Shown here: positions 14,100-63,593 of the stretch, one piece after another
How positions within the stretch are numbered: the first letter of the stretch is position 1
How the letters are laid out: every line of letters starts with the position of its first letter
Assembly (NCBI RefSeq): GCF_000196515.1
Contig: NC_014248.1
Span: 4,592,001 to 4,656,000, forward strand
Direction: 5' to 3'
DNA length: 64,000 nt
DNA from: 'Nostoc azollae' 0708
GTDB taxonomy: Bacteria; Cyanobacteriota; Cyanobacteriia; Cyanobacteriales; Nostocaceae
Program-made: the position numbers and the translations under genes
The notes under the pieces: generated by a model
The model's database searches: none
Seen by the model: only the letters and a program-made list of their open reading frames with translations
What the model was told of the DNA's origin: nothing

Positions 14100-15374
14100 A
14101 TGACTCCTAATCCCGCCATTATGCGCTCTGTAGAACAATTGGGATACCGTGTTACTGTTGGTGATGTGGCAACTCAGGCTGGTTTAAATGTAGGTGAAGC
14201 TAATCAAGGTTTATTAGCCCTAGCGTCTGACGCCGGTGGACATTTGCAGGTAGCAGAATCCGGTGATATTGTTTATCAATTTCCGCAAAATTTTAGAAAT
14301 ATTTTGCGTAATAAATACTTGCAATTGCGATTGCAGGAATGGTGGAAGAAGATTTGGGGGGTGCTGTTTTACTTAATTCGTATTTCCTTTGGCCTTTTGT
14401 TAATAGCTTCTATTGCGCTGATTACTGTTACTGTCATCATCATTATTACTGCTGCTAACTCAGACCGAGATGGAGATAATAGGAGCAGTAGTTCTAGTGG
14501 CTTCAATTTCTTCTTTTTCCCTGATTTATTCTGGTATTTTAGCCTTGATTATTATTCCCAGGAACGACGAAGAGAAAGAAGGGAAGATAGCAAATTCAAT
14601 TTTTTTGAGTCGGTGTTTTCGTTTCTGTTTGGTGATGGGAATCCTAACGCCAATTTAGAAGAACGTCGTTGGCAAGAAATTGGTACTTTAATTCGTAATC
14701 ATAAAGGGGCAGTGGTAGCAGAACAAATTGCGCCCTATTTGGATAATTTGGGTGAAAAATATCAGCAAGAACATGAAGATTATATGTTGCCTGTGCTGGT
14801 TCAATTTAATGGTAAACCCCAGGTAAGTCCTGATGGGCAAATTGTCTATTATTTTCCTGAATTGCAGGTAAAAGCTAGTAAAAAGCAGCGTCAGTCCATA
14901 GCACCATATTTGGAGGAATTGTCCTGGCGTTTTAGTGAGGCGAGTTCTGAACAAATTATGCTCAGTGCTGGTTTGGGTGCCGTGAATTTGGTGGCTGCTC
15001 TAATGTTAGGTAGTTTATTGAGTGGTGCCACAGCCGCAGCGAAAATAGGAGTACTGGTTGGTTTTGTGCAAGGAATTTATTGGTTGCTGTTAGCTTATGG
15101 TATTGGTTTTTTAGGTATACCTTTAGTACGTTATTTTTGGATTCAATGGCGTAATGGTAAACTTGCAGGTCGTAATCGTGAACGTTTGGAAAGAGCCAGA
15201 TTTTTAGCAAATGCGGATGATTTTTTACAGCAGAAGATTGCTTTTGCTAGTCAGTTCGCAACGGAGAAAGTGATTGGTAAGGAAGATTTAATTTATTCCA
15301 GTGACACAGATTTACTGGAACAGGAATTTGAGCAAGTGAAAAAGCAAAACCGGTTAGATGAAAATAGGGAATAG
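14100..15374 (+). CDS. Conserved cyanobacterial membrane protein, unknown function
   Basis: 424 aa with a strong ribosome site (AGGAGAG, 6 nt before ATG). The first ~70 residues look like a small winged-helix module (GYRVTVGDVATQAGLNVGEA). One or two membrane segments follow (LFYLIRISFGLLLIASIALI), then a low-complexity acidic/aromatic stretch. A second segment with similarity to the first module lies at about 205-280 (GTLIRNHKGAVVAEQIAPYL). Two more membrane helices are near 315-370, with a basic cytoplasmic tail. This type of protein is widespread in cyanobacteria; I cannot assign a biochemical role. Confidence 0.8.
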   Translation: MTPNPAIMRSVEQLGYRVTVGDVATQAGLNVGEANQGLLALASDAGGHLQVAESGDIVYQFPQNFRNILRNKYLQLRLQEWWKKIWGVLFYLIRISFGLLLIASIALITVTVIIIITAANSDRDGDNRSSSSSGFNFFFFPDLFWYFSLDYYSQERRRERREDSKFNFFESVFSFLFGDGNPNANLEERRWQEIGTLIRNHKGAVVAEQIAPYLDNLGEKYQQEHEDYMLPVLVQFNGKPQVSPDGQIVYYFPELQVKASKKQRQSIAPYLEELSWRFSEASSEQIMLSAGLGAVNLVAALMLGSLLSGATAAAKIGVLVGFVQGIYWLLLAYGIGFLGIPLVRYFWIQWRNGKLAGRNRERLERARFLANADDFLQQKIAFASQFATEKVIGKEDLIYSSDTDLLEQEFEQVKKQNRLDENRE

Positions 15375-22503: not shown

Positions 22504-22780
22504 TATTTTATACCTACAACTCCCATGTTAGAGAATTCTCTGTGCTAATCAATACATGCCTATTTGATTACTGACCTAAGCAGCTTATTCCCAGCAGCAA
22601 CGAATTATTTAATGTAAGTCTTCTTAGGATATTTTGAGAAGATACTTTGTCTTGGAATTTTATTTGTTTGATGTGATTTATTGTACTTTAATTCCAGAGA
22701 AATATTTTAGCCATGTCTATGGTTGGCGTAGCTAAAAGCACACTTTTTGCCCCACCTCACAAAATCGCCTTACTCCTGGT
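22176..22780 (+). repeat. 605-bp inverted repeat flanking RNase Z (left)
   Basis: It covers the transposase C-terminus and the IS end (CACACTTTTTGCCCCACCTC). The partner is 24287-24891 in inverse orientation, of equal length and almost identical. Confidence 0.85.
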
Positions 22781-24286: not shown

Positions 24287-24891
24287 ACCGGGAGCAAGGC
24301 GATTTTGTGAGGTGGGGCAAAAAGTGTGCTTTTAGCTACGCCAACCATAGACATGGCTAAAATATTTCTCTGGAATTAAAGTACAATAAATCACATCAAA
24401 CAAATAAAATTCCAAGACAAAGTATCTTCTCAAAATATCCTAAGAAGACTTACATTAAATAATTCGTTGCTGCTGGGAATAAGCTGCTTAGGTCAGTAAT
24501 CAAATAGGCATGTATTGATTAGCACAGAGAATTCTCTAACATGGGAGTTGTAGGTATAAAATATTAGACAGTTTGAAGATGGATAAAAGAGGTAAAAATA
24601 GAATTACAGAAATTATGCCAACTTCCAGCTATCCATTGACAAGGAAGATGTAACATAATTTCCACATTTTCTTTTAACCAAAATTTACTGTTTTCTTTCA
24701 TTCTTAAATTGACAACTTGGTGGATTAAACTTTCCATAGCTCCACTACCAATAGGTAATTTACGGGCTAAAACTTTAGCATAATTCAAACGTTCTTCCCC
24801 ATAGGCACGTAAAAGATAATTTTTTTGTTTAACCAGAGTTTTAGAATACTCTCCTACTGCTGAAGCAATAAATTCATCTATATTAATGCAC
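24287..24891 (-). repeat. 605-bp inverted repeat flanking RNase Z (right), ISKra4-like fragment
   Basis: Inverse copy of 22176-22780. It contains the same 74-codon transposase C-terminus (LPIGSGAMESLI ... HLPCQWIAGSW) between 24564 and 24788. It is joined directly at 24892 to an IS701 fragment, so this element was cut or recombined there. Confidence 0.85.
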
Positions 24892-45211: not shown

Positions 45212-45547
45212 ATTATCAAAATTGAGGCAAGTTTTTTGTCTGCAAAATTTAAAGAAGCGTTAGTTAATATTTAGTTCTTAAATCCTGTAAATCCTTAAAT
45301 CTTGATTCAGGCGATCTGGGAAATCAAAAACAAGATACTATACTATAGTATGCGCGCAAATAAAAATTACCACTACCACTATATTAGACATAATGTAAGC
45401 TCTGCTATTTGTCAACTACCTCAGTCATAAATTTCTGAATTAAGATTGAGGAATCCGACGTAAGAATGAATATAATTAACAAATGTGTTTCCTAGTCCTG
45501 AAAAAGATTACATTCAATTAAATAAGGTTAAGAACAAATTACTGATT
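45212..45547. other. Leader region of prfC, no gene seen
   Basis: AT-rich with no supportable frame. The open frame of prfC begins at 45485, but the family start is 45548. Promoter elements are not distinct enough to call. Confidence 0.4.
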
Positions 45548-47176
45548 ATGACTACTGAACTTGTGGAAGAACTGGGTAAAGCGGTGGAAATGCGGCGCAA
45601 TTTTGCGATTATTTCTCATCCTGATGCTGGTAAAACTACGTTAACGGAAAAATTATTATTATACGGAGGTGCTATCCACGAAGCAGGGGCAGTCAAAGCC
45701 CGAAGAGACCAGCGCAAGGTAACTTCTGACTGGATGGCAATGGAACAACAACGGGGTATTTCTATTACTTCTACAGTGTTGCAATTTGTCTATCGTAATT
45801 GTCAAATTAATTTACTGGATACCCCTGGACACCAAGATTTTAGTGAAGATACCTATCGCACTTTAGCAGCTGCCGATAACGCGGTGATGTTAATTGATGC
45901 GGCTAAGGGGTTGGAACCCCAAACCCGGAAACTGTTTGAAGTGTGTAAGCTGAGGGGTATTCCTATTTTCACATTTGTGAATAAACTGGACCGTCCGGGG
46001 AGAGAACCTCTGGATCTGTTGGATGAAATTGAGCAAGAATTGGGGTTACAAACTTACGCAGTGAATTGGCCTATAGGGATGGGCGATCGCTTTAAAGGTG
46101 TATTTGATCGCCACCAGCGGCAAATTCATTTATTTGAACGCAGCGCCCACGGTAGCCGAGAAGCCCGCGATACCATCATCAATTTAGGTGAAAGCAGAAT
46201 TGAAGAACTACTAGAAGAAGACCTTTATCACCAACTCAAAGATGAGTTAGAGCTATTAGAAGGAGCAGGAGGGGAACTGGATTTAGAATTAGTGCATGAA
46301 GGAACAATGACACCTGTGTTTTTTGGTAGTGCCATGACTAACTTTGGGGTGGAATTATTCCTCAAATATTTCCTTGACTATGCCCTCAAACCAGGTACAC
46401 ATAGGAGTAGCGTCGGCGAAATTCCTCCTACCTACCCGGAATTTTCAGGATTTGTCTTCAAACTCCAAGCCAACATGGACCCGAAACATAGAGATAGAGT
46501 AGCTTTTGTCCGGGTCTGTACAGGTAAGTTTGAAAAGGATATGACAGTTAATCATGCCCGCACAGGCAAGGTTGTCCGTCTGTCTCGACCACAAAAGCTC
46601 TTTGCCCAAGAGAGAGAATCAATTGATGTGGCTTATCCTGGTGACGTGATCGGTTTGAATAATCCCGGCGTTTTTGCGATTGGGGACACAATTTATACAG
46701 GTCAAAAACTGGAATATGAGGGAATTCCTTACTTCTCACCAGAGCTTTTTGCCACTCTCAGAAATCCCAACCCCTCGAAATTCAAGCGATTTCAAAAAGG
46801 TGTTTCTGAATTACGGGAAGAGGGTGCTGTACAAATTATGTACTCAAATGATGAAGCCAAGCGCGATCCAATTTTAGCAGCGGTTGGTCAGTTGCAATTT
46901 GAGGTGGTGCAGTTCCGTCTACAAAATGAGTATGGTGTGGAAACCATATTAGATTTATTGCCCTACAGTGTTGCTAGATGGGTTGAAGGCGGTTGGGAAG
47001 CTTTGAATCAGGTGGGACGTTTATTTAACACGACTACTGTTAAAGACAGTATGGGAAGACCTGTATTGCTATTCCGTAATGAATGGAATTGTCAACAGTT
47101 GGAGGGAGACCATCCAGAGTTGAAATTAACTGCGATCGCCCCTGTATTTTCCAGTCAAAAACAGGATACAGAATAA
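45548..47176 (+). CDS. prfC: Peptide chain release factor 3
   Basis: 542 aa from ATG 45548 ([20 protein letters not shown]). RF3 is the translational GTPase that removes RF1/RF2 from the ribosome after termination. The G1 motif SHPDAGKTT is at residues 23-31, the switch-I region [12 protein letters not shown] follows, then G3 [16 protein letters not shown] and G4 NKLD in [11 protein letters not shown]. Domain II and the RF3 C-terminal domain are complete ([20 protein letters not shown]). The upstream in-frame extension lacks similarity. Monocistronic. Confidence 0.96.
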
Positions 47177-47348: not shown

Positions 47349-49535
47349 ATGCCTTCATATCAACAGCCGTCTTTGGAGGCTGGTTTAGCTGCCCTCAAGC
47401 AGGGAAATTACTACGCCGCAATTACTCAACTTGTACCTATTGCCAACAGCAAAAATCAGAGCAATACTTGTTTGCAAGCTCAAGTTGGGCTAGTTATGGC
47501 TTATGCGCGTACAGGCGAAATTACTAAGGCGATTACCCTTTGTGATTATTTGATTAGAAGCACTAATCCGCAAGTTCAAGAATGGGCACAACGCGCTCTT
47601 GAACACTTGAATAAAGTGCAAAAACGCCACAAAAAAACTAGGACACTTGAAAATGGATTTGTGGCTTTTGATAATTCCTTAGCTACTCCTTTAGTTTCTA
47701 CCACAACGCGACAACAAAAAGAAGGTATCCCAGAAAAAAATACTCCTAATCCTGATATAGATATCCCAAATACTACAGCCACTGAACCAGTTAGTATTTA
47801 TTGGCGACACGCTAGACGTGCTAAGGTATGGCAACCTCTCCGTAAATATAACTCCATCCTATCCCGGCTGCTGGCGCTGGGAACATTCATAGCCATTTTT
47901 TGGGTATTGTGGGGATTAATCAGTTTGCTAATGGCTTTGATCACCCAAATTTTAGAAAAACTGCCTTATGTAAATCCATTGCCACTTTTATATACCAATC
48001 CTGCTTCATTAATATTATTCCTATTATTGGTTTTACTCGGATTGTCTCCTTGGTTGCTAGATTGGCTATTGGCAAAATTTTATGGACAACAACCGCTATC
48101 TAAAGAAATCTTGTACAGCCACAGCCGTGAAGTACTCCGGGTGACACAACGTGCTTGTCAATTAAGACATTGGCCTGTTCCCAGACTCCAGATTTTACCA
48201 ATGGCAGCACCAATTATGTTGACCTATGGTAATTTACCCTGCACAGCCCGGATTGTCGTTAGTCAAGGATTGTTAGAAAAACTAAGTGATGATGAAATAG
48301 CCACTATCTACGCCTTGGCTTTAGGGCAAATTGGCCGCTTGGATTTTCTGGTCATGTCTTTGGCTTTGCTGGTGACCTTGCCAGTTTATCAGCTATATCA
48401 GCAAGCATCGACTTGGGGAAATAAGAGTGACAAGGAAATTTGGCGCTGGACTGCTACAGCTTTGAGTAGTCTGAGTTATGGAATTTGGTGTTTGCTGGCT
48501 GGTACGACTTTGCTTAATTCCCGGTTTCGGCTTGACTCTAGCGATCGCTACGCAGCTGAAATTACAGGAAATCCCAATGGGTTAATTCGTGCCTTACTCA
48601 AAATTGCCATTGGTATTGCTGATGATATCAAAAAACAAGAACACACGAGTTGGCAATTGGAAAGTTTAAATATTGTCGCCCCAGTTAGCCACCAACAAAG
48701 TCTGTGTTTGGGAAGCATTGCAGGATATCTGCCCTGGGAATCATTCTTAATGTGGGAAAACTCCAATCCTTATCGGCAATGGTTTACTGTTAATAATAGC
48801 CATCCATTAATGGGCGATCGCATCCAACGCATAAGTCAAATAGCCCATCATTGGCATCTAGAAACTGAACTACATCTAACCATTCCAGAATCCTTCCCCG
48901 TTAAACCTCAATCCTTCCTATTACAAATCGCCCCTTGGTTGGGAATACCCCTGGGGTTTGTATTAGCAGGTATGTTTTGGCTAATATGGCAAACATCATA
49001 CACATTTCATTTAGTCAACCTGCAATGGATCTATGATGATTGGTCTTTCATGACAGGGTTTATGATGATCGGCTTTAGTATAGGTACAGTGATGCGGATT
49101 AATGCCTTCTTTCCCGAAATCAAACCTCTCGCCTTACAAGCTGATGACCAACTGCCTCAGCTATTAACCAACCCCTTTGTTTTACCAGTAGATAGCATCA
49201 GTGTCCGGTTTGTTGGTAAACTATTAGGCCGTCGTGGAATTAGCAACTGTCTATCCCAAGACCTGATTCTACAGTCCAGCACAGGTTTAGTGAAACTACA
49301 CCATGTTCCATTGTGGGGACTCTCAGTTACTCCCCAAGAATTAATTGGTCGGCAAATTATCGTCACAGGTTGGTTACGACGAGGAGCAACACCTTGGATA
49401 GATATCCAAACCCTAGAAACTCAAAATGGCAAAACCATTAACAGCCCTCATCCTATTTGGTCTACTGTTTTAGCAGTCATCGCCCAAGCATGGGGAGCAT
49501 ATATTATGCTCACCGCCCAATCTGTTGGGGGTTAA
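47349..49535 (+). CDS. Large membrane protein with M48 peptidase-like domain lacking HExxH
   Basis: 728 aa. The N-terminal ~100 residues are TPR-like (GLAALKQGNYYAAITQLVPI), then a linker and a four-to-six-helix membrane region. At about 255-450 is an M48-type domain: RACQLRHWPVPRLQILP and RIVVSQGLLEKLSDDEIATI align with the segment ahead of the zinc motif. Where HELGH is expected the sequence reads LALGQ (YALALGQIGRL), and the third-ligand region reads LDSSDRYAAEITG. Both histidines and the glutamate are therefore absent. A pseudo-protease or scaffold role is likely. The C-terminus has two more helices and a beta-rich soluble region (LLQSSTGLVKLHHVPLW). A terminator follows. Confidence 0.85.
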   Translation: MPSYQQPSLEAGLAALKQGNYYAAITQLVPIANSKNQSNTCLQAQVGLVMAYARTGEITKAITLCDYLIRSTNPQVQEWAQRALEHLNKVQKRHKKTRTLENGFVAFDNSLATPLVSTTTRQQKEGIPEKNTPNPDIDIPNTTATEPVSIYWRHARRAKVWQPLRKYNSILSRLLALGTFIAIFWVLWGLISLLMALITQILEKLPYVNPLPLLYTNPASLILFLLLVLLGLSPWLLDWLLAKFYGQQPLSKEILYSHSREVLRVTQRACQLRHWPVPRLQILPMAAPIMLTYGNLPCTARIVVSQGLLEKLSDDEIATIYALALGQIGRLDFLVMSLALLVTLPVYQLYQQASTWGNKSDKEIWRWTATALSSLSYGIWCLLAGTTLLNSRFRLDSSDRYAAEITGNPNGLIRALLKIAIGIADDIKKQEHTSWQLESLNIVAPVSHQQSLCLGSIAGYLPWESFLMWENSNPYRQWFTVNNSHPLMGDRIQRISQIAHHWHLETELHLTIPESFPVKPQSFLLQIAPWLGIPLGFVLAGMFWLIWQTSYTFHLVNLQWIYDDWSFMTGFMMIGFSIGTVMRINAFFPEIKPLALQADDQLPQLLTNPFVLPVDSISVRFVGKLLGRRGISNCLSQDLILQSSTGLVKLHHVPLWGLSVTPQELIGRQIIVTGWLRRGATPWIDIQTLETQNGKTINSPHPIWSTVLAVIAQAWGAYIMLTAQSVGG

Positions 49536-49716: not shown

Positions 49717-49738
49717 AACCAGCCAGTGGCTGGTTTTT
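49717..49738 (+). terminator. Intrinsic terminator after the M48-like gene
   Basis: Stem AACCAGCC/GGCTGGTT with loop AGT, followed directly by TTT. It is 180 bp after the stop codon. Confidence 0.7.
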
Positions 49739-50148: not shown

Positions 50149-50646
50149 ATGTCCGTTCGCCTGTATATAGGTAATTTGCCCAAAGAAGAAATAGATCGTC
50201 AAGAGTTGCAAGCAGTGTTTGCATCTGAAGGCGATGCTGTCACCACTAAACTAATTAAAGACCGCAAAACAGGCAAATGTCGCGGTTTCGGTTTTCTAAC
50301 GGTGAACAATGACGAACAAGCAGACCAAATTATTGAAAAGTATAATGGTCAATTGTTCAAAGACACAGCCATCAAGCTAGAAAAAGCATTACCTCGGACA
50401 AAAGGTGAAGAAGGTGACGAGCAAGCACCCAAGCCTGCTAGTCAAGCTAGTAGCGCCCCCGCACCTAGCATCAACAAGGAAAACCGTCGTGACAAAGGCG
50501 CTAAGAAATCTCGCCGTGGTGGTGGTGGTGGTGGAAATCGTGAAACAACTACCACAGTAGATTCAGACGCAATTCGTCCCGATCCACGTTGGGCTGCTGA
50601 TTTAGAAAAGCTGAAGCAGATGTTAGCCGCACAAGCGACTAACTAA
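50149..50646 (+). CDS. RRM-type RNA-binding protein
   Basis: 165 aa. One RRM fills residues 3-82, with RNP2 LYIGNL and RNP1 KCRGFGFLTV. After a proline/alanine linker comes a basic, glycine-rich patch (KKSRRGGGGGGN) and then an unusual C-terminal helix (RPDPRWAADLEKLKQMLAAQ). Most cyanobacterial Rbp proteins are ~100 aa; the longer tail separates this one from them. Binding to RNA is expected; targets unknown. The Shine-Dalgarno is GGAGG. Confidence 0.92.
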   Translation: MSVRLYIGNLPKEEIDRQELQAVFASEGDAVTTKLIKDRKTGKCRGFGFLTVNNDEQADQIIEKYNGQLFKDTAIKLEKALPRTKGEEGDEQAPKPASQASSAPAPSINKENRRDKGAKKSRRGGGGGGNRETTTTVDSDAIRPDPRWAADLEKLKQMLAAQATN

Positions 50647-61865: not shown

Positions 61866-63593
61866 TTGCAACCAGTTGATTTTACAACTCTCAAAGCTGC
61901 CTGTGGTGAACTACGGGCTAATTGGCTACCTGCGCGAACAGAACAGGTTTTCCAGCGCGATCGCTATACTATTGCCATAGCCTTACGGACTATGAAAAGG
62001 CGGGATTGGCTAGATATTTCTTGGCATCCCCAAGCTACACGCATTTGTATTGGTGAACCACCACCACGCATACCAGACACATTCACTTTTAGCCAACAAC
62101 TAATTCATCAGTTGGGTGGGTTGGCCTTAGTTGCTATTGATTTTATCGCCCCTTGGGAACGAGTGGTTGATTTAAAATTTGCCCGTCGTCCAGGAGAAGA
62201 AGCACTTTATCACCTGTACGTCGAAGTAATGGGTAAATATAGTAATGCTATTCTCACAGATGCTAGAAATGAAATTATCACCGCTGCGCATCAAGTTAGT
62301 CAGCAGCAATCTAGCGTCCGTCCCATCCAAACCGGACAGCCTTATGAACCGCCACCAAAACTTACGGGAACTATTCCCAGTTTGGGGAAATCTCAAGCAC
62401 GCTGGCAAGAAGGAGTCAGTTTGATACCGGGAGGGATTAAACGACAGTTACTGAAAAGTTATAGTGGTTTGAGTGCGGCTTTGTTAGATACGATGTTGCT
62501 GACTGCGAATATAGCAACAGATACAAGCACAGATGCTTTAACTGGTGATGATTGGGATAGACTATTTGCGTGTTGGCAAAAATGGCTACAAACTTTAGAA
62601 ACTGGTAAATTCCAACCCGCTGGGACTGAAAATGGCTATACGGTGATGGGTTGGGCTGAAGTAGCACCAGCCAACAACATTCAAGAATTACTCAACCAGT
62701 ATTACACCGACCAGTTACGTCAACAGTTATTTTCCCAACTACGCCATCAGTTAAGTCAGAAGTTACAAAATATTCTGGGTAAGTTAGGCAGTAAGGCACA
62801 AACATTTAAAGACAGATTACAACAGTCAGATCAAGCGGATGAATATCGGCAGAAAGCTGATTTGTTAATGGCGCATCTGCAAAACTGGCAACCGGGGATG
62901 AAGGAAATTATCCTGGCAGATTTTGAGACAAACCAACCAATGGCGATCGCACTTCAACCAGATAAAAACGCTGTCCAAAATGCCCAAAAACTTTATAAAC
63001 AACATCAAAAACTTAAACGCGCCCGTGCTGCTGTCGAACCATTGCTGTGGGAAGTGCAAACAGAAATTGACTATTTGGAACAAGTAGAAGCTGCAATTTC
63101 CCAAATTGATCAATATCAAACAGCAGCAGATTTGCAAGCACTAGAAGAAATCCGTGATGAACTAATTGGACAAAAATATCTAGAAGCCTTAGAATATCGC
63201 AGCAGAAGCACAACCGATAGAGCAAGTACCAACTTTCATTGTTACCGCACTCCCAGCGGCTTTGAAGTCTTAATTGGTCGGAACAACAAGCAAAATGATT
63301 ATCTCACATTTCGTGTCGCAGGAGATTATGACTTGTGGTTTCACGCCCAAGAAATCCCCGGGAGTCATGTTCTACTACGTCTAGAACCGGGTAAAGTTCC
63401 TGAAGAAACAGATTTACAATTTACTGCCAATCTTGCTGCTTATTTTAGTCGTGCCCGTCAAAGTGACCAAGTACCAGTAGTTTACACCCGATCCAACCGG
63501 GTCTACAAACCCAAAGGTACTAAACCAGGGCTTGTGGTTTACAAGCAAGAAACTATTATTTGGGGACAACCGGGAATAATTCGTAATTCGTGA
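61866..63593 (+). CDS. NFACT-family protein (RqcH / Rqc2 homologue)
   Basis: 575 aa, TTG start at 61866 (MQPVDFTTLKAACGELRANW, as in homologues). RqcH binds stalled 50S-peptidyl-tRNA complexes and adds C-terminal alanine tails that mark the chain for degradation. The NFACT-N region includes ERVVDLKFARRPGEE and LYVEVMGKYSNAILTD. The middle has two helix-hairpin modules and long coiled coils (about 275-320 and 365-440). The C-terminal NFACT-R domain reads DYLTFRVAGDYDLWFHAQEI and PGSHVLLRLEPG. The domain order is complete. Older annotation calls such proteins fibronectin-binding, which is unlikely to be the role here. Confidence 0.93.
   Translation: MQPVDFTTLKAACGELRANWLPARTEQVFQRDRYTIAIALRTMKRRDWLDISWHPQATRICIGEPPPRIPDTFTFSQQLIHQLGGLALVAIDFIAPWERVVDLKFARRPGEEALYHLYVEVMGKYSNAILTDARNEIITAAHQVSQQQSSVRPIQTGQPYEPPPKLTGTIPSLGKSQARWQEGVSLIPGGIKRQLLKSYSGLSAALLDTMLLTANIATDTSTDALTGDDWDRLFACWQKWLQTLETGKFQPAGTENGYTVMGWAEVAPANNIQELLNQYYTDQLRQQLFSQLRHQLSQKLQNILGKLGSKAQTFKDRLQQSDQADEYRQKADLLMAHLQNWQPGMKEIILADFETNQPMAIALQPDKNAVQNAQKLYKQHQKLKRARAAVEPLLWEVQTEIDYLEQVEAAISQIDQYQTAADLQALEEIRDELIGQKYLEALEYRSRSTTDRASTNFHCYRTPSGFEVLIGRNNKQNDYLTFRVAGDYDLWFHAQEIPGSHVLLRLEPGKVPEETDLQFTANLAAYFSRARQSDQVPVVYTRSNRVYKPKGTKPGLVVYKQETIIWGQPGIIRNS

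Follow-up and report, generated by a model that had tools for sequence, protein, structure and literature searches.

Among described M48 proteins, HtpX keeps the HExxH motif, and its cyanobacterial members in our alignment span 271–306 aa, which leaves no room for a TPR region or a C-terminal domain of the kind reported below. BepA of Escherichia coli is periplasmic and carries its TPR at the C terminus. It is described as combining an M48 domain with TPR, having a catalytic HEXXH, and working at BAM (PMC9797188). Pseudoproteases have already been reported in the rhomboid and FtsH families, where iRhoms and FtsHi proteins are described as membrane proteins that lack protease catalytic residues and have kept a function (for FtsHi, PMC9020784). 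In the open-licence PMC literature, which is what our search covered to the exclusion of subscription papers, we found no description of an M48 pseudoprotease clade.

Here we analyzed a stretch of 64,000 nucleotides from the obligate Azolla symbiont 'Nostoc azollae' 0708 (PMC4369082), hereafter the window. A first-pass annotation had singled out in it an M48-fold membrane protein without catalytic zinc ligands. The protein shares an M48 domain with HtpX and BepA, but it has lost HExxH and, unlike BepA, has hydrophobic segments and an N-terminal TPR region. It resembles FtsHi and iRhoms in its lost catalytic residues, although those belong to other families and, unlike it, have known partners. 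Its closest counterpart is a long cyanobacterial M48 paralogue of the same layout from end to end, which differs in keeping H-E-H and the third-ligand Glu.

Architecture of the predicted protein

The gene and the regions recognized in its product are as follows.

47349..49535, + strand: whole gene, membrane M48 pseudoprotease of 728 aa (ORF, Pfam M48, HtpX profile alignment, alignment of 110 sequences)
47349..47633, + strand: N-terminal TPR-like region, aa 1–95 (TPR_19 in the clade, designed TPR structures, AF2 model)
47886..47942, + strand: hydrophobic segment, aa 180–198 (Kyte-Doolittle mean 2.59)
48003..48059, + strand: hydrophobic segment, aa 219–237 (mean 2.46)
48084..48878, + strand: M48-like domain, aa 246–510, boundaries approximate (Pfam aa 299–498; hhalign to HtpX aa 230–500)
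48330..48386, + strand: hydrophobic segment, aa 328–346 (mean 1.84)
48927..48983, + strand: hydrophobic segment, aa 527–545 (mean 1.75)
49155..49448, + strand: conserved C-terminal beta domain, aa 603–700, tentatively OB-fold-like (invariant residues; low-confidence model)
49455..49517, + strand: predicted C-terminal helix, aa 703–723 (secondary structure of a low-confidence model; no hydropathy peak there)

The reading frame starts with ATG and, as the first-pass annotation had stated, is clean over 728 codons, with no internal stop; the M48 homology proposed there was borne out. The Pfam M48 family (PF01435) matched aa 299–498 with 34.3 bits, above the gathering cut-off of 20.3 (E 2.8e-8), which places the protein in the M48 superfamily by descent, and all 32 members of a profile built from the inactive clade individually matched the same family at E ≤ 0.01. 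In hhalign comparisons, this 32-member profile aligned with cyanobacterial HtpX over aa 230–500 (probability 99.4, E 4.7e-21) and nearly end to end with the intact long paralogue (E 4e-115 across 660 columns); it also matched the HtpX structure 3CQB (E 1.1e-6). The best NCBIfam HtpX model matched aa 217–436 (E 1.3e-16), with a score far short of its equivalog cut-off (60.7 vs 341 bits). A full-length AF2 model built from eight close sequences had a pLDDT of 42.5 and was too poor for a claim about the fold; support for the M48 fold comes from the profile evidence (HtpX and 3CQB). A PDB search with the 728-aa protein alone returned no match at E ≤ 1, and PHROGs gave a single weak match to a family of unknown function (E 0.00078). 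The gene presumably carries the annotation M48 peptidase, a label that would mislead.

The proposed TPR-like N terminus gave a weak match when the protein was searched by itself (TPR_16, E 0.047) and was clear at the level of the clade, in which TPR_19 was detected in 19 of 32 members and the clade profile matched designed TPR structures at E 1.9e-14. The N terminus was also the best-predicted part of the AF2 model, with blocks of aa 1–90 at pLDDT 63–87. Two membrane blocks had been proposed; hydrophobic segments are indeed present, but the hydropathy scan gave four peaks above 1.6 rather than two. The product is an M48-derived, TPR-bearing, probably multi-pass membrane protein, its membrane location and topology being predicted from hydropathy.

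Across the 32 sequences, invariant residues of the C-terminal domain include G623, L625, G674, W675, and R678. Modeled alone, this domain reached a pLDDT of 59.8, and Foldseek with that model returned no match at E ≤ 0.001, so the names at the top of its list carry no meaning. The best VIA-align hit was weak (Z 5.6), and many entries in that list are OB-fold proteins by name, at Z 4.5–5.6, a range that the tool calls common. We therefore describe the domain only tentatively as OB-fold-like.

Loss of the zinc site in a probably ancient clade

Two positions define the lost site, both located in the alignment of 110 sequences.

48315..48329, + strand: HExxH position, reads LALGQ, aa 323–327
48531..48533, + strand: third-ligand position, Glu replaced by Leu395

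The intact paralogue sequence YAHELGHIVHWD aligns with YALALGQIGRLD in the 728-aa protein, placing L323, A324, and Q327 at the H-E-H positions. Around the third ligand, SRTREYFAD in the intact paralogue corresponds to SRFRLDSSD here; the Glu is replaced by L395, and the Asp that follows the ligand (D399) is kept. All zinc ligands are thus missing, in agreement with the first-pass annotation. The intact sequences used for comparison were chosen by their motif, so the conservation of the motif among them is not a finding.

The annotation had also suggested collecting homologues and asking whether the inactive motif is universal. The first His was kept in none of the 70 aligned rows of the inactive clade, and neither was the third Glu (0/70), while the middle Glu (position 324) and the second His were each present in 27/70. 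At E ≤ 0.001, 101 of the 292 genomes sampled from the phylum gave a match, a count that includes weaker hits to HtpX and other M48 proteins, and the inactive protein itself was present in 69 of the 292 (65 genomes read; G033, G066, G203, and G262 assigned from the match table). These genome sets, as well as those for the active paralogue and for the relatives of a second M48 gene considered below, were compiled by hand from match tables.

Before the 110-sequence alignment we removed the two copies of the window sequence (L001 and L047), six identical sequences, and the short fragment L080_5351; the pseudogene L013 has no long frame and is in no protein alignment. Trees were built quickly, with the motif columns taken out, from rows left after removal of sequences more than 85% identical (86 rows) or more than 60% identical (48 rows), also without L080_3989, and they contain some long branches. 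In the 86-row tree, 53 rows, all without the motif, formed a clade with an SH-aLRT value of 88; the remainder comprised 23 rows with H-E-H, five further inactive rows, and five HtpX outgroup rows. The inactive clade had an SH-aLRT value of 95 in the 48-row tree. Its sister in the 86-row tree is the long paralogue of the same layout, whose motif is mostly intact. Relatives with an intact HExxH were found only outside the clade, in this sister paralogue and in HtpX, and the merely local loss that would have undone the earlier interpretation was not seen. A single grouping of all inactive rows was rejected (p-AU 3.1e-135, 48 rows), and the 86-row tree required five state changes, at least three of them forced by starred branches; the motif was therefore lost more than once in the family. 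The window's protein thus belongs to a cyanobacterial clade, probably an ancient one of M48 pseudoproteases, and its loss of the motif is not local.

Further motif losses, at differing stages, were seen within the lineage of the long active paralogue (L103, L108, L104, L099, and L113), with the states HEQ/E, QQH/T, QAR/T, and YQR/T.

Selection on the inactive domain

Pairwise NG86 omega was 0.20 between the window and L005 and 0.175 between L005 and L014. Pooled over seven partly overlapping pairs that share sequences and are not independent, omega was 0.175 for the whole gene, 0.189 for the TPR region, 0.631 for the linker, 0.170 for the first membrane part, 0.133 for the M48 domain, 0.125 for the second membrane part, and 0.203 for the C-terminal domain. 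Around the former catalytic positions, the pooled values were 0.104 for the 21 codons at HExxH, with few changes, and 0.182 for the 17 codons at the third ligand. These values indicate that the inactive M48 domain is constrained as tightly as the remainder of the protein and demonstrate purifying selection on it among the relatives. Loss of the catalytic residues is thus combined with constraint on the sequence, as in a pseudoprotease.

The first-pass annotation had argued that a clean frame implies selection, a step that is weak for the window's own genome; it is the wider family that shows selection. An uncultured Trichormus record (L013), 95.4% identical to the window at the DNA level, carries the orthologue as a pseudogene with four in-frame stops and five frameshifting indels (L013 3000–5230), while its neighbors prfC, the RNA-binding gene, and a glycosyltransferase gene are open. 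Omega between the window and L013 was 0.87. Counted at codons with the same state in two outgroups, the window branch since the split from L013 has three synonymous and three nonsynonymous single-change codons, too few to judge selection, and the L013 branch has three synonymous and 24 nonsynonymous ones. The clean frame in the window's genome alone is therefore no proof of present selection. Judged by the broken frame of L013, at least one close relative can do without the gene. Azolla symbionts are described as having many pseudogenes, with different genes lost in different lines (PMC12362246), and such line-specific loss would agree with the gene being intact here but broken in L013.

Proposed role and relationship to active M48 proteins

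We infer that the protein is an M48 pseudoprotease serving as a membrane scaffold or adaptor, a reading to which we assign a probability of roughly 0.65. A role other than cutting is probable because many cyanobacteria keep the inactive version, often without a working copy. An architecture of N-terminal TPR, membrane segments, M48 domain, membrane segment, and C-terminal beta domain is common to this protein and the intact long paralogue; the first zinc His and the third-ligand Glu would have been lost early in the clade, and the protein would then have been retained in a non-catalytic form. Anchored in the membrane, it may bind partner proteins through its TPR region, while the ligand-free M48 groove and the C-terminal domain may hold or present a client. 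It would probably work at a cytoplasm-facing membrane surface and serve the biogenesis or quality control of membrane proteins. Counterpoints are that the Glu and the second His still occur together in 16 of the 53 clade rows and that the copy in L013 is broken.

An unlikely, though not implausible, alternative is that the protein serves specifically as a regulator, or as an inactive subunit, of an active M48 protein, namely the long paralogue, HtpX, or the M48 enzyme encoded at window position 1650, to which the first-pass annotation had tentatively tied it. Inactive protease paralogues can work with active relatives, as described for four FtsHi proteins, which form complexes with FtsH12 and Ycf2 (PMC9020784). 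The long active paralogue is wrecked in the window's own genome, however, where only residues 1–158 (77%) and 619–661 (81%) remain, with a stop at codon 2. Among the 69 genomes with the inactive protein, the active paralogue was intact in 20 (18 read; G039 and G203 from match scoring), broken in three, and without a match in 46, where absence means none at E ≤ 1e-20 with at most four candidates scored per genome. A further nine genomes had an intact active paralogue and no member of the inactive clade. An obligate partnership with the long paralogue is disfavored because it is broken or unmatched in 49/69 genomes. The window's family is represented by 32 genomes, all of which have the inactive protein and 10 of which have an intact active paralogue; here, the pseudoenzyme is retained more faithfully than the enzyme. 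This prevalence, 69 of 292 sampled genomes and often no active sister, is what gives an M48 pseudoprotease its wider interest.

The M48 protein at 1650, called active in the first-pass annotation, does have an intact motif, with AHELGH and, in the third-ligand region, AEFTCD. It lies 45 kb from the inactive gene. Its relatives occur in 110/292 genomes, comprising all 69 with the inactive protein and 41 without it, so that co-occurrence cannot discriminate. A partnership is compatible with these data, which offer no evidence for it, and the specific tie drawn earlier is not supported. Nor was gene linkage seen, the recurrent neighbors being prfC and an RNA-binding gene. The earlier interpretation is, overall, partly supported.

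The pseudogene of the long active paralogue in the window's own genome (L125, G000:C1:1474053-1475214) lacks the peptidase core. A 537-base stretch separates its remnants, and the ends of this stretch are inverted repeats with 39 of 45 bases alike. The repeat end has 34 copies in the genome at ≤2 mismatches, these two included, against none in the control. Similar ends were found in the window at 22754–22777 (three mismatches) and 24290–24313 (one mismatch), where none is expected by chance. L003/L129 had been considered as the remnant of the lost active paralogue and was dropped, L125 being the better remnant.

Genomic neighborhood

Three features flank the gene.

45485..47176, + strand: upstream neighbor prfC, release factor 3 (Pfam GTP_EFTU and RF3_C)
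49717..49735, + strand: terminator-like hairpin between the inactive M48 gene and the RNA-binding gene (pattern scan)
50149..50646, + strand: downstream neighbor, class II RRM RNA-binding protein of the RbpG/Rbp3 type (RRM_1; PDPRWA motif)

We compared a near group of 36 loci, consisting of 31 from the window's family and five placed by similarity that may repeat a genome (L005, L007, L009, L010, and L011), with the other loci of the inactive clade. The prfC gene lies upstream on the same strand at 36/36 near-group loci and 8/32 others, and the RRM gene lies downstream at 30/35 and 18/31, respectively. Within the fetched flanks, neither gene was found next to the active paralogue (0/26 each). 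When a 2 kb flank was required, the counts were 15/39 for prfC and 23/37 for the RRM gene. Of the inactive-clade loci outside the near group that had enough flank, 10/30 had neither neighbor. By these counts, the association is strong among near-group loci but patchy among the others, and the gene order suggests a functional link with prfC and the RRM gene. The gap between the inactive gene and the RRM gene is about 600 bases. The hairpin within it is a hint at most, since one terminator-like hairpin was found against 2.9 expected by chance; the promoter scan was uninformative (eight sites vs 9.0 expected).

The PDPRWA motif was encoded somewhere in 48/69 loci of the inactive clade and is described as characteristic of class II Rbps, Rbp3 among them (PMC9333190). 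Synechocystis Rbp3 is reported to bind photosynthetic mRNAs, and loss of its Anabaena homologue RbpG, encoded by all4377 in strain 7120, to reduce photosynthetic mRNAs and disturb thylakoid organization and PSII repair (PMC11500504). The inactive M48 gene thus sits beside a type of gene reported to matter for thylakoid organization. A search of the open-licence literature for the locus tag all4378 found nothing. From the locus tag of rbpG, we guess that all4378 may be the Anabaena 7120 orthologue of the inactive gene.

Of the recurrent neighbors, one encodes RF3 and the other an RNA-binding protein of class II related to Synechocystis Rbp3, which binds photosynthetic mRNAs. One might picture the inactive M48 protein as a docking platform at the membrane, linking translation to the biogenesis of thylakoid membrane proteins. 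Factors bound to ribosomes or mRNA would dock on its TPR and OB-like domains, and the M48 groove would hold an emerging membrane client. We regard this version as improbable.

Unlikely readings: residual catalysis or decay

Catalysis that persists through a rearranged site or a different chemistry seems very improbable. In its favor are the 16 of 53 clade rows that retain both Glu324 and the second His, together with the low omega of the site region noted above, which reflects few changes. Ten further rows keep the Glu only, seven the second His only, and 20 neither, so that all four ligand or catalytic positions are lost in 20/53. Against it stand the universal loss of the first His and the third Glu in the 70 aligned rows and the chemically scattered residues that replace lost positions across the clade; inspection of the column list by eye revealed no pair of metal-binding residues that had become conserved close to the site.

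Accidental degeneration in a decaying symbiont genome, to which the pseudogene-rich nature of such symbionts (PMC12362246) and the broken copy in L013 would lend themselves, is contradicted by the same ligand losses across the whole clade, by omega of about 0.2 between pairs of other relatives, and by the intact frame in the window's genome, for which alone it keeps a very slight probability.

Other loci in the window

A 424-aa ORF at 14100–15374 had no Pfam match at E 0.001. The gene at 61866–63593 encodes an NFACT-family protein with N-terminal, middle, and RNA-binding domains.
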